A stretch of DNA of 64,000 nucleotides, taken from contig NZ_VMOA01000001.1 in NCBI RefSeq assembly GCF_020662345.1, forward strand, positions 124,001 to 188,000. The letters run 5' to 3'. Under the pieces are notes generated by a model. That model saw only the letters and a program-made list of their open reading frames with translations, was not told where the DNA came from and ran no database searches. Below are positions 11,319 to 40,687 of this stretch, piece after piece. Positions within the stretch are counted from its first letter, which is position 1. Each line of letters begins with the position of its first letter. The DNA is from Methylobacterium sp. W2 (GTDB taxonomy: Bacteria; Pseudomonadota; Alphaproteobacteria; Rhizobiales; Beijerinckiaceae). The position numbers and the translations under genes were made by a program.

Positions 11319-12239
11319 GTGGACCCGGCGCGCCTGCGCATCGGGATCGACCTCGGCGGCACCAAGATCGCCGGCATCGCCCTCGATGCCGGCGGAGCCG
11401 TTCGTGCCGAGGCGCGGATCCCGACCCCGCGAAACGATTACGCCGCCACCCTCGACGCGATCGTCGCTCTCGTCCTGCGCCTGGAGCGTGACGCCGGCGG
11501 CGTCGGCAGCATAGGCATCGGCATGCCGGGCGCGATCACGCCCGGCAGCGGCCTCGTGAAGAACGCCAACTCGGTCTGGCTGAACGGCAGGCCCTTCGTC
11601 ATCGATCTCGAGGCACGGCTCGGCCGACCGGTCCGCGCCGAGAACGATGCCAATTGCCTCGCCGTTTCCGAGGCGGTGGACGGGGCGGGCGCGGGCGCGC
11701 GGGTCGTCTGGGCCATCATCCTCGGGACCGGCGTCGGTTCCGGCATCGCCATCGACGGGGTCGCCCTGTCGGGTGCCAACCGCATCGCCGGCGAATGGGG
11801 CCACAATCCGCTTCCCGCCCCCCGCGACGATGAGCGGCCCGGCCCAGCCTGCTATTGCGGCCGGCATGGCTGTATCGAGACATGGCTGTCCGGCCCCGGC
11901 CTCGCCGCCGATCATGCATGGCGGACCGGCGCAGTCGCTTCGACCGGCGAGTCCGTCATCGCCGCCGCGCGCGCCGGTGATGCCGCCGCATGTGAGAGCA
12001 TCGGCCGCTATCGGGAGCGGCTCGCGCGTGCGATGGCGGGCGTGATCAACATCTTCGACCCCGACGTGGTGGTCCTCGGCGGCGGATTGTCGACGGTGCC
12101 GGAACTGACCGCCGATCTGGCTGCAGCGATCCTTCCGCACGTCTTCTCCGGGGAATGCGGGACGCCGATCCGAATGAGCCGCCACGGCGACGCATCCGGT
12201 GTGCGGGGTGCAGCCTGGTTATGGGGCATCCCCGCCTGA
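11319..12239 (+). CDS. ROK family sugar kinase (fructokinase/Mak-like)
   Basis: The 306-aa kinase has the ROK order: LRIGIDLGGTKIAG at the N-terminus (ATP phosphate loop), GIGMPGAI, NDANCLA with the catalytic aspartate, ILGTGVGSGI, then the zinc motif GHNPLP...CYCGRHGCIETWLSGPG. The VVLGGGLS near the C-terminus completes it. This zinc motif and length fit bacterial fructokinase (Mak) or N-acetylglucosamine kinase, and sequence alone does not decide. The start is GTG, 9 bp after dctA. It provides a useful contrast with the permuted relative at 38400-39479. Confidence 0.9.
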   Translation: MDPARLRIGIDLGGTKIAGIALDAGGAVRAEARIPTPRNDYAATLDAIVALVLRLERDAGGVGSIGIGMPGAITPGSGLVKNANSVWLNGRPFVIDLEARLGRPVRAENDANCLAVSEAVDGAGAGARVVWAIILGTGVGSGIAIDGVALSGANRIAGEWGHNPLPAPRDDERPGPACYCGRHGCIETWLSGPGLAADHAWRTGAVASTGESVIAAARAGDAAACESIGRYRERLARAMAGVINIFDPDVVVLGGGLSTVPELTADLAAAILPHVFSGECGTPIRMSRHGDASGVRGAAWLWGIPA

Positions 12240-37041: not shown

Positions 37042-37602
37042 ATGAAGCCCACCGTCCCCGAACCCGACCTGCCGTACCGGCCCTGCGTCGGAATCATGCT
37101 GATTGCCTCCCAGGGGCACGTGTTCATCGGCCGTCGCCGTCAGGAGGCCGGGCCGGAGCATGTGCAGGGCGACCGGGCCTGGCAGATGCCGCAGGGTGGA
37201 ATCGATGAGGGCGAGGCTCCTCTCGCAGCGGCCCTGCGCGAACTGCACGAGGAGACCAACGTCTCGGCCGGGTCGGTCGTGCTCCTCGGGGAGACGCCCG
37301 GCTGGCTCGCCTACGATTTGCCGCCCGCCGTACTGAAACAGGCCTGGAAGGGTCGTTATCGCGGGCAGACGCAAAAGTGGTTCGCCTTCGGTCTCATCGG
37401 CGACGAGGCCGAGATCGATGTGCTTTCACCCGGCGGCGGCCTTCACAAATCCGAGTTCGATGCCTGGCGTTGGGAGCCCATGGACGGATTGGCCGATCTC
37501 ATCGTGCCGTTCAAGCGGCCTGTCTACGAGGCGGTGATCACGGAGTTCGCGGGCCTCGCCGGGTGGAGCGAGCTGGCGCAGAGGGCTGCCCCGTCGCGAT
37601 GA
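37042..37602 (+). CDS. rppH: RNA 5'-pyrophosphohydrolase RppH
   Basis: The 186-aa Nudix hydrolase starts mRNA decay by removing pyrophosphate from the 5' end. The Nudix box is complete in [20 protein letters not shown] followed by TNV, preceded by the RppH-type [12 protein letters not shown] and [20 protein letters not shown] and [12 protein letters not shown] near the C-terminus are also family-typical. An in-frame ATG at 37030 adds four residues. The TGA overlaps the start of the DUF2939 gene (ATGA). Confidence 0.93.
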
Positions 37603-38273
37603 TGCGATTGTGGTGGATCCCGATTTCCCTGCTTCTGACGTGGTTCGTCTTTACGTTGACGCCGTTCTGGATGCTCTATGACCTCGCCTCGGCGGTGCAG
37701 GCGCGGGACGTCGGCTATGTCGAGCGGCACGTCAACTTCCGCATCCTGCGCCAATCCATGATCCGGCAGATCTCGGCCGCCGCCTCTCAGCCGAGGGGGG
37801 AGCCCGGTGCCGAGGTCGAGCTTTCGCGGGATCGGCAAAGGTTGATCGAGGCCGCAGCGGCCCTGGCCGAACCCCTGACCGAATCCCTGGTGACGGCCCA
37901 GTCGGTCATCGATCTCCTCGATGACGGCATTCCACAATCCCTCGATCTCGGCCTCCGCGGCGGCGACGCCGCAGGTTCCGATGTCGAGCACAGGAGCGGT
38001 ATCCCCGCCGGATTGAGGATCGACACGATCTCACGGCTGATTCCGTACTACCTGTCCTCGGAGATGCGGGGATTTCGCACCCTCGTCATCGCCGTGCCTC
38101 CCGAAGCGTCCCGGTCACAGCGGTTCCGCCTCCGTCTGCGCCTACGGGGGTGGTCGTGGCGCCTGGTGGAGATTGAACTACCGAGTGACCTGCGTAACCG
38201 CATTGCCAGCAAGGTCGCCCGCGTCCGCACCCATCCGGACCAGGATGCGGTACCGCCGCCCACCCAGCGCTAA
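37599..38273 (+). CDS. DUF2939 family protein
   Basis: The 224-aa protein begins with a single membrane anchor, [20 protein letters not shown], followed by [20 protein letters not shown] and [12 protein letters not shown]. This combination is the signature of DUF2939, whose members are thought to be anchored in the inner membrane and exposed to the periplasm. The middle ([18 protein letters not shown]) is helical. The C-terminus is a basic beta-rich unit ([20 protein letters not shown]). The function is unknown. It overlaps the rppH stop by four bases and converges on the permuted ROK gene. Confidence 0.82.
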
Positions 38274-38399: not shown

Positions 38400-39479
38400 T
38401 CAATGCACCGTGTCGGGTAGCCGCCGGTTGGTGAAGCGGGCATTGCCGAGGCCGGTGCCGATGGTGAGTACGCCCCATCGCGCGACGCCCGTCATGTCCG
38501 ACATGGCCGAGAGGCCCTGCACCACGGCGTCGTTGTGCATCAGCACCATGGTATCGTGATCCCCGATGGTGGGAATGGCTTCCACCAGCCGTTCGGTAAG
38601 GTTGAAACGGCTGCTCTCCCAATCGCCGGGCAGGTTCTGTCCACCCCGCTCGATGGTCCCATCGGCGGCGATGACGCCGGGGCACCCGACCCCGATGAAG
38701 GGCGCGAGTTTTAGGCGCGAGCGCTCCGCCCGCGAGATCAGGTCGTTCAGCATCGCGATCAGGCGGTCGACCGCCTCGTCGCGGCTCGGGGCCGGATCCT
38801 CGTCGCGGTGGCGCCAGAGCTCCGAACGCCAGATCTCGGCGCGCGACAGGTCGGAGGCTTTCTTCAGGTTCGTGGTGACGACTCCCGCCCGGATGTTGCT
38901 GCCCCCGATATCGACGGCGAGCAGACTGTCGTAGCCGGAAAAGATCCAGGACGGCGCGAGGTGGACGGCCCCGATCAGCCCGGCCTCGTCCGGGTGATGA
39001 CGGATCGGCTCGAGGTTCAGGTTGAGACCGCCGGCACGGAGGATCACGCTGGCCCGGTCGATGGCGAGTCGTCCGGCGAGGCTGTCGCTGAAACCGCCGC
39101 CGACGACGATGCTTTGGGTATCGCGCCACCCCTTCTGACGCAGGAAGCGCCGCACCACGGTGGCGAGTTCCTGGGCAAATTCCTCGATCGCGCCGAACAC
39201 CACGCCGGCGGCAAGCGGCGGACCCTCGATCAACAGATCGTCGAGGCGCCGCTTGCTGAAATCCTGGCTTGCCTTCGCGCCCAGGGGATCGGGGCCGAGC
39301 TTGCGCAGCTTCTCGCGCCAATCCTCCACGAGGTCGCGGAAAGCTTTCTTCGATACGCGGTCGCCGACGAAGCCCTCGCCATTCTTCAACTCGATGTTGT
39401 AATCGTCGAGGATGACCGAGGGCAGGTCGCTCGGCGCGTGGGAGAGGCTCGATCCACGCGTTACCGTATCCGTGCCCAT
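38400..39479 (-). CDS. ROK-family protein with circularly permuted motif order
   Basis: In this 359-aa protein the ROK motifs come in the wrong order. Residues 90-175 carry what is normally the C-terminal end: FAQELATVVRRFLRQKGW, SIVVGGGFSDSLAGRL (GGG at 127-129), HHPDEAGLIGAVHLAP. Only then comes the usual N-terminal phosphate loop LLAVDIGGSNIRAGVV (187-201), GVGCPGVIAADGTIERGG (263-280), the catalytic HND (315-317) and GTGLGNARF (341-349). The protein ends there. The zinc motif is absent. All catalytic signatures are kept, so ATP-dependent phosphorylation is possible, but the substrate is unknown. Contrast the normal ROK enzyme at 11319-12239. Confidence 0.8.
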   Translation of the reverse strand: MGTDTVTRGSSLSHAPSDLPSVILDDYNIELKNGEGFVGDRVSKKAFRDLVEDWREKLRKLGPDPLGAKASQDFSKRRLDDLLIEGPPLAAGVVFGAIEEFAQELATVVRRFLRQKGWRDTQSIVVGGGFSDSLAGRLAIDRASVILRAGGLNLNLEPIRHHPDEAGLIGAVHLAPSWIFSGYDSLLAVDIGGSNIRAGVVTTNLKKASDLSRAEIWRSELWRHRDEDPAPSRDEAVDRLIAMLNDLISRAERSRLKLAPFIGVGCPGVIAADGTIERGGQNLPGDWESSRFNLTERLVEAIPTIGDHDTMVLMHNDAVVQGLSAMSDMTGVARWGVLTIGTGLGNARFTNRRLPDTVH

Positions 39480-39629: not shown

Positions 39630-40010
39630 TTACTTCGCTTTGGGGGCGGCCTCGCCGGGGGGCGCCTTCGGCTGGCGGGCCTCCATCAGATCCTCCGCCT
39701 TTTCTTCGTCGGTATCGCCGCTCTGCTCGATCGCCTTCTCGGGGTTGGTGGCCAGCGCTTTGATGATCGCGACAAGGCGATCGCATTCGCCCTCGTACTT
39801 GTACGTCTCCAGGATGATCGCGGCGTCACGCAGGGTGCGGAGGTCGCGTACCGCCTGCTTGTTGGCGGTCTCGCGAAGCTCGGACTTTCCGGCGATGGCC
39901 TCTTCGAGCTTCGCTCCCTTCACATCACACGCAGCCTTGGCGTTTCCTGTCGTGTAGGCGCTGAGCGTCGTGGCGAAGAGGACGAGAGCGGTGGCGAGCA
40001 GGGTACGCAT
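39630..40010 (-). CDS. Secreted hypothetical protein, 126 aa
   Basis: A signal peptide, MRTLLATALVLFATTLSAYT to about NAKA, precedes a small helical domain. It has two cysteines (ACDVKG at the start, GECDRLVAIIKAL in the middle) that could pair in the periplasm. The tail is charged and Pro/Ala-rich (EARQPKAPPGEAAPKAK). I do not recognise a family. It lies downstream of a receiver-domain gene with 39 bp between, so the two may be co-transcribed. A large perfect palindrome follows the stop. Confidence 0.6.
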   Translation of the reverse strand: MRTLLATALVLFATTLSAYTTGNAKAACDVKGAKLEEAIAGKSELRETANKQAVRDLRTLRDAAIILETYKYEGECDRLVAIIKALATNPEKAIEQSGDTDEEKAEDLMEARQPKAPPGEAAPKAK

Positions 40011-40049: not shown

Positions 40050-40478
40050 TCAGGCGTAGTGGGGGAAACGGCGCAAGAGGCCGTTGGCGAGGGCGATGAG
40101 TTGGCTCGGGCGGTAGGGCTTCGGCACGAAGATTGACTCCGCTACCGCATCCGCCTGCGAGAGGCTTCCGCGTCCGCCCGACGTGTAGATGACCGGGAGG
40201 TTCGGGCGCAGGCGCCGCGCCCGGCGGGCGAGGGAGAGGCCATTGGTGTTGCGGGCCAAATCGATATCGGTGAAGAGCAGGTCGACGCGTTCCCGCGCCA
40301 GGATGTCTTCGGCCTTCTCGGCATCGGCGGCGCTGAGAACGCGATAGCCTTCGTCCATGAGGGCTTCGACGGCCAGTTCGCACACCATGGCTTCATCCTC
40401 CACCACCAGGACGGTTTCGGATCCGCGGACGGAGCCGAAATTCGGCAGCGCGAAGGCAGCGTAAGCGACAGGGATCAT
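40050..40478 (-). CDS. Single-domain response regulator
   Basis: The 142-aa protein is one receiver domain: TVLVVEDEAMVCELAVEAL, the phosphoacceptor aspartate in LLFTDIDLARNTNG, the switch residues in VIYTSGGRG and the lysine in FVPKPYRPSQL. No output domain follows. The DLARNTNGL-LAR loop is typical of the CheY-like proteins that accompany HWE/HisKA_2 kinases in alphaproteobacteria. No kinase is next to it, so its partner is elsewhere. The ATG at 40478 is preferred. Confidence 0.88.
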   Translation of the reverse strand: MIPVAYAAFALPNFGSVRGSETVLVVEDEAMVCELAVEALMDEGYRVLSAADAEKAEDILARERVDLLFTDIDLARNTNGLSLARRARRLRPNLPVIYTSGGRGSLSQADAVAESIFVPKPYRPSQLIALANGLLRRFPHYA

Positions 40479-40687
40479 GACGCAACTCCAACTCACCCGG
40501 GGCAGGACGAGAAGCCCGACGCCGGATCGTCACACCAACGGGAGTGGCGGCCGCGATGTTCGGTCCCGTTCATTCGAATTGCGCGGACTTGGTAAGCAAT
40601 GCCTTAACCCTACCGGATCGGCCTCGGTCGTCCCGGGACGGAACGGGGCAACGGGACGGCGCGCGCTGCCATGAGCCGGACCTTGTC

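Follow-up and report, generated by a model that had tools for sequence, protein, structure and literature searches.

An apparently natural circular permutation of the ROK kinase family in Methylobacterium and other Pseudomonadota

ROK kinases (PF00480), such as NagK, NanK and the ROK glucokinase, are the closest described relatives of the protein discussed here. A study of NagK reports that D6 is a metal ligand and that D105, within an N104-D105 pair, is the catalytic base; it also presents the zinc site as a ROK trait and describes D6 and D105 mutants with activity below detection, as well as a loss of activity in T10V and T132V (PMC10031466). The gene under study lies on the minus strand at 38400..39479 of the window, a 64,000-nucleotide stretch of Methylobacterium sp. 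W2, and encodes a protein of 359 aa (P0001) in which the two halves of a ROK protein stand in swapped order. It is close to certain that its family is a circular permutation of ROK, and the gene itself probably encodes a naturally permuted ROK-type kinase of the ASKHA fold. As many relatives keep the swapped order, this looks like a genuine and so far uncharacterised rearrangement, made in nature, within a well-known enzyme family.

The gene is a single open frame on translation, and all of the features described below lie on its strand. The C-terminal half of a normal ROK protein (about residues 144-300) has its counterpart in the first half of the chain (aa 14-176; 38952..39440), and the N-terminal half (about residues 1-145) in the second (aa 184-353; 38421..38930). 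Between them, profile and structure matches delimit a short joint of the old C-terminus to the old N-terminus (aa 177-183; 38931..38951). The initial annotation had placed six motifs along this chain, and all six were found in the translation at the positions claimed. These are IVVGGG, the adenosine or second-domain glycine motif (aa 124-129; 39093..39110); EAGLIGAV, the old C-terminal helix motif (aa 165-172; 38964..38987); AVDIGG, the phosphate-1 motif, with D190 at the metal-ligand position (aa 188-193; 38901..38918); GCPG (aa 265-268; 38676..38687); HND, with the predicted catalytic base D317 (aa 315-317; 38529..38537); and GTGLG, the phosphate-2 motif just ahead of the new C-terminus (aa 341-345; 38445..38459). 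Two further elements are family marks: a conserved loop, N-x-E...GF-x-GD (aa 28-40; 39360..39398), which stands where ROK proteins have the zinc and sugar loop, and QNLPGDWE (aa 281-288; 38616..38639), which may form a loop on the sugar side.

Evidence for the permutation comes from the alignment of a profile of 24 family members with one of 20 normal-order ROK rows (hhalign). The ROK rows were chosen by similarity to a NagK-like ROK protein of the window, with seven of 26 candidate loci dropped for low score or short coverage, and they amount to 19 distinct rows because that protein enters twice. It is encoded at 11319-12239 on the plus strand, has the normal order, and gives its best PDB matches to 2ap1, 4db3 and 7p7i (E 5e-59 to 3e-53). 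Two disjoint matches were obtained, in swapped order: family columns 192-350 align with ROK columns 7-141 (E 9.1e-8), and columns 79-182 with 206-302 (E 2.9e-6). Each half also matches when taken alone (E 1.5e-8 and 7.5e-7; best of 50 N-half shuffles, E 0.02). When the ROK profile is doubled in tandem, a single continuous match is found (score 105.4, E 2.4e-13), against a score of 22.2 (E 0.079) for the best of 50 column shuffles. In a similar manner, columns restored to ROK order give one match over 287 columns (E 1.3e-11). Restoring the order of the sequences barely raises HMMER scores, and HMMER sums separate domains. Judged from these profiles, the ROK motif order in the window protein is beyond chance.

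Single-model searches detect one half far more readily than the other. PF00480 finds residues 187-353 of P0001 alone, with 25.1 bits where 22.9 is the cut-off, and aligns them to its positions 2-143 of 294; the end of the NanK model (219-286 of 288) matches residues 106-175 at E 0.042, which is weak alone. Membership of ROK is found in part: the gathering cut-off is passed, and the standard N-to-C order of the whole domain is absent, the halves being swapped. Among 36 family members scanned, 35 match PF00480 at E 0.001. A permutation, if confirmed, would explain why these genes are annotated, from half a domain, as 'ROK family protein' or 'hypothetical protein'.

The predicted structure is consistent with one ROK fold whose termini have moved, as the initial annotation proposed. 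A single confident full-length model was obtained (pLDDT 88.0, pTM 0.85), and its halves cover complementary parts of the ROK structure 3r8e: model residues 184-352 match 0-145, and residues 20-165 match 144-289. The two-domain ROK fold is thus recovered in the prediction as two halves, and the cut point had been placed correctly, directly past GTGxG. Residues 10-28 and 163-183 lose their order in models that lack the other half; the latter fall below a pLDDT of 50 without the second half and are confident in the full model. With the whole model, the top Foldseek match is a tandem hexokinase (5hfu_B), and the alignment to 4foi_A, which extends from 258 to 687, passes over the junction between two kinase units; its rmsd is 34.3 because the units are not placed alike. 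The N-half alone gives no Foldseek match at E 0.001 or below, its best matches being ROK kinases at 3.3e-3, and PDB sequence searches with the permuted protein give weak matches.

The order is conserved well beyond the window. A homologue search over the whole 359 aa had been proposed, and in the collected loci 156 open reading frames (ORFs), or 137 distinct proteins with the window's own included, align with 320 or more positions of the family profile; seven further ORFs are partial. Since they span the permuted profile, the first half is no separate domain. Strict patterns for five test motifs find the permuted order in 132 of the 137; of the remaining five, four miss just the narrow GGG[FLW] pattern and one misses both this and GTGLG[NS]. 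The closest relatives share 96-98% identity with P0001 along the entire chain and others share 46-77%, which indicates that the gene is real.

When each species was represented by a single genome, 268 related stretches were confirmed, and the best 80 of these were kept. With the window genome included, carriers number 11 of 61 relatives, 20 of 150 genomes across the order, 12 of 289 across the class and 22 of 398 across the phylum, five of the last outside the class. Among 72,556 plasmid records, 206 reach E 1e-5 and 204 cover at least 80% of the protein, with 111 matches in Rhizobium and 79 in Sinorhizobium, frequently recorded as 'ROK family protein'. Phage records hold no relative at E 0.01 and viral contigs none of the permuted protein; as PADLOC gave no match either, a phage or defence gene was rejected.

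A normal-order sister was also sought. The C-half profile matched 20 of 150 genomes and in them the permuted family alone, always in open frames of at least 359 aa and with a weakest E of 3.6e-78 (limit 1e-5). Two short-frame ROK proteins (L166, L167), which we take to be polyphosphate-glucokinase-like, were rejected as permuted, as they have normal order and weak C-terminal profile matches. The locus tag SMb20472, guessed to be the permuted gene of S. meliloti 1021, is arcB2. Apparent remnants were found as well. The last third of the protein stands alone in short ORFs at L169:2117-2569 (-) and L168:1851-2198 (+), likely decayed second copies, as their genomes (G003, G340) also carry a full one. 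In a Bosea plasmid (NZ_CP102773.1:527153-527361), a match in two pieces (44%, E 4e-3) is confined to residues 13-83 and represents either an N-terminal remnant or a separate small protein. Two genomes (G523, G539) hold two full-length copies each; their family, f183, is the source of the Bradyrhizobium-like sequences.

The initial annotation held that the ATP and catalytic motifs are retained, and this is borne out in the alignment of the 137 distinct members, where phosphate-1, the ND base and GTGxG are kept in 135-137. D190, G192, G193, N195 and R197 are invariant, as are G127-G129, L168, G170, C266-P267-G268 and HND with N316 and D317. T342, like GTGLG as a whole, is found in 136 of 137, with one gap, and T or S stands at 194 in 135. 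By motif position, D190 is equivalent to D6 of NagK, S/T194 to T10, N316-D317 to N104-D105 and T342 to T132. As the metal, phosphate and base positions are conserved, an active small-molecule kinase is inferred, and kinase function of the permuted protein is likely.

The sugar side is a different matter. The structural zinc site of ROK proteins has the motif H and CxC...C. P0001 has one cysteine, C266, and therefore lacks CxC...C, in agreement with the loss of the zinc motif proposed earlier. The zinc-site cysteines are absent from the whole family: C266 alone is kept in 137/137, outside the zinc region, and C198 occurs in 77/137. In the alignment, another conserved segment takes the place of the zinc loop, which in ROK proteins contributes to the sugar site, and the NagK sugar ligands E154, H157 and D187 fall where the family has H14...N28-x-E30...GF-x-GD40. 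Thus N28 (132/137), E30 (128/137) and D40 (136/137) are candidate sugar-site residues that may replace the NagK ligands. Q281, N282, L283, P284 and W287 are invariant and, with the equally invariant Q321-G322-L323, mark the family. A likeness between the sugar-site motifs of hexokinases and the family's N28-x-E30...GFxGD and GTGLGNA is not established, and the PDB sequence search gave no hexokinase match.

By comparison with ROK proteins, the chain begins in the middle of theirs, just past the GTGxG hairpin of the large domain, runs on to the old C-terminal helix, crosses the joint of about seven residues to the old N-terminal strand and finishes at GTGxG. The following mechanism can be proposed. 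The whole would fold as one ROK unit whose two domains close round a small substrate with a hydroxyl group and ATP-Mg; as in NagK, D317 would activate this hydroxyl for phosphoryl transfer. Such a gene may have arisen when a ROK gene was duplicated in tandem and the pair was then trimmed at its two ends. Termini moved to a hairpin near the phosphate-2 loop may alter domain closure and the control of the substrate.

The genomic neighbourhood offers a suggestive link to trehalose. There are 11 loci with otsB nearby among 125 flanked loci (the broken L101 counted), and seven of them also hold otsA and a GH15 trehalase-like gene; Pfam identifies GT20, Trehalose_PPase and GH15 with TREH_N among the scanned neighbours. 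Three arrangements were observed. In the first, otsB is divergent and the two match ends lie 160-390 bp apart (L094, L098, L101, L197), and four genomes of genus g20 add GH15 and then otsA (L194, L196, L219, L224). In the second, GH15, otsA, pfkB, otsB and the permuted gene follow one another on one strand (L195, L198). In the third (L041), GH15 and otsA come after the permuted gene, and then an otsB of which only the start is included before the locus ends. The first includes a permuted gene broken into three ORF pieces, beside otsB on a Rhizobium leguminosarum plasmid (L101:8001-9032). A tree built from 59 of the 123 members, with near-copies (L094 and L194 among them) and L101 left out, places the ots loci in three separate parts; its 'one change' counts compare the ots and methylo groups only and are silent on origins.

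At the level of genomes, OtsB (PF02358) occurs in 49 of 51 carriers (missing in G762 and G774) and in 25 of 61 genomes of an even sample of the order, a comparison in which kinship is uncontrolled. The sample includes six known carriers, all with OtsB; the rest give 19/55, or 9/18 at 4 Mb or more, and the lists do not show testing for the permuted gene in all 55 of these. For Methylobacterium the comparison carries no information, since OtsB is also present in each of the 28 non-carriers. Of the 51 carriers, 36 have the glucokinase PF02685. The four g20 genomes with the permuted gene beside otsB lack it, as do 11 of the remaining 44, and the three other searched carriers with ots genes beside the permuted gene have it. 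In the window's genus, PF02685 adjoins otsB in eight of nine carriers, including the window genome (G000:C34:15832-17649), where it thus occupies the place that the permuted gene has in other genera.

A second indication comes from promoters. A strict GGAAC-N15-19-CGTT motif of the EcfG/RpoE2 type, a form that agrees with promoters described for S. meliloti RpoE2 (PMC6180224), precedes the gene in 21 of 136 distinct upstream regions, compared with 51 of 5440 random stretches from the same loci, not matched by group; an earlier count gave 10/100 and 16/5057. Its distribution is uneven among groups defined by protein identity: it occurs in 0/25 Methylobacterium-like members (at least 68.5% to P0001, the window gene among them), 1/65 Bradyrhizobium-like members (at least 74% to L065) and 20/46 others. 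Consequently, a stress link is likely for part of the family, the motif being absent upstream of the window gene.

From these observations, the substrate may tentatively be sought among hexoses, most likely glucose, whose 6-phosphate would feed or recycle trehalose under stress. It is rather doubtful, though conceivable, that in many Alphaproteobacteria, and in some Pseudomonadota outside that class, the permuted ROK serves trehalose metabolism as its glucokinase in the stress response, and that at least one genus has it next to otsB instead of the usual glucokinase. An equally tentative alternative to the hexose proposal is a permuted ROK-type kinase for another substrate (a sugar, polyol or osmolyte), with trehalose neighbours that reflect shared stress regulation only. 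Replacement of the zinc loop with the ROK sugar ligands would fit such a change, and so would the separate PF02685 glucokinase of 36 of the 51 carriers and the PfkB-family kinase that the trehalose cluster of G765/G796 already has of its own. Neighbours also differ between loci: a NAGGN peptidase in S. meliloti, threonate genes in Phyllobacterium and, at a divergent member (L200:338-8535), a sugar-type ABC transporter (binding protein, ATPase and permease) and a Dak1/Dak2 kinase ahead of the gene, with a DeoC/LacD aldolase on the other strand before it and a HAD hydrolase after it. The L200 neighbourhood is a good place to seek the substrate. Nevertheless, mere co-regulation must accommodate trehalose genes that recur nearby in three arrangements and in three separate parts of the tree.

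It is improbable that the protein is instead a pseudokinase or sensor that binds a nucleotide and a sugar or sugar phosphate and acts in regulation, like ROK repressors without the helix-turn-helix. Some ROK proteins are described as transcription repressors (PMC12696579). Moreover, 114 of the 125 loci have no ots partner within their flanks, nor is there one in the window, and the QNLPG-W and H-N-D-x-V-x-Q-G-L-S signatures exceed the needs of generic catalysis. Nevertheless, the retention of D190, T/S194, T342 and D317 in 135-137 of 137 members is unexpected for a dead kinase, and Pfam scans of P0001 and of 36 members reveal no DNA-binding domain. Finally, that the order is an artefact of misassembly, of a misread frame or strand or of a chance fusion of unrelated half-domains is hardly credible and was rejected, since nothing but its oddness favors this, while independent genomes carry the same order (268 related stretches, 204 plasmid records covered to at least 80%, 137 distinct full-length proteins) in one conserved frame with a complementary predicted fold.

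If confirmed, the permuted kinase would be a natural experiment on how well a kinase of actin-like fold, and the closure of its domains, can cope with relocated termini. It is also a candidate new kinase in the stress or trehalose physiology of rhizobia and methylobacteria.

At the window locus itself, the gene is flanked on one side by a DUF2939 ORF (37377-38273, +) with a NUDIX gene beyond, and on the other by a small protein without a Pfam match and then a receiver-domain protein. The small protein (39630-40010, -; 126 aa) has a signal-like start by eye. Together with the adjacent receiver-domain gene (40050-40496), it has homologues in 34 loci, the window and same-genome repeats counted, all from Methylobacterium or its genus except one from a Beijerinckiaceae metagenome-assembled genome (MAG; L012).

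In the literature, no permuted ROK kinase was found among the matches listed for permutation in full-text, open-licence papers, and open-licence papers on stress, trehalose or locus tags named none. The word stem 'permut' is not used in the retrieved portions of a 2025 review of glucose kinases (PMC12696579). A 2005 classification, as excerpted, groups kinases with cores possibly related by circular permutation in general terms (PMC1079889), and the excerpts of a paper on a clustering method contain 'circular permutation' and 'ROK family' without linking them (PMC1976428).

Compared with known systems, the permuted family is thus nearest to the ROK kinases, to which both halves are homologous in sequence and predicted fold and with which it shares the phosphate-1, ND base, GTGxG and GGG motifs. 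Unlike them, it has its halves swapped and its termini past GTGxG, lacks the zinc CxC...C, reads HND where they have END and carries QNLPG-W and GF-x-GD motifs of its own. The polyphosphate/ATP glucomannokinase (PDB 1woq; NF045942) has the normal order in a shorter chain, of 267 residues in the PDB entry. Hexokinases (PF00349) belong to the same superfamily; they are larger chains of normal order, with sub-threshold Pfam matches in four of six relatives scanned, and the tandem ones are among the top Foldseek matches, which run across the joint of their units. Finally, the group A glucokinase (PF02685, Glk), with below-cut-off matches to the permuted protein in three of six relatives scanned, is a separate family of normal order, but in eight of nine carriers of the window's genus it adjoins otsB just as the permuted gene does in other genera.
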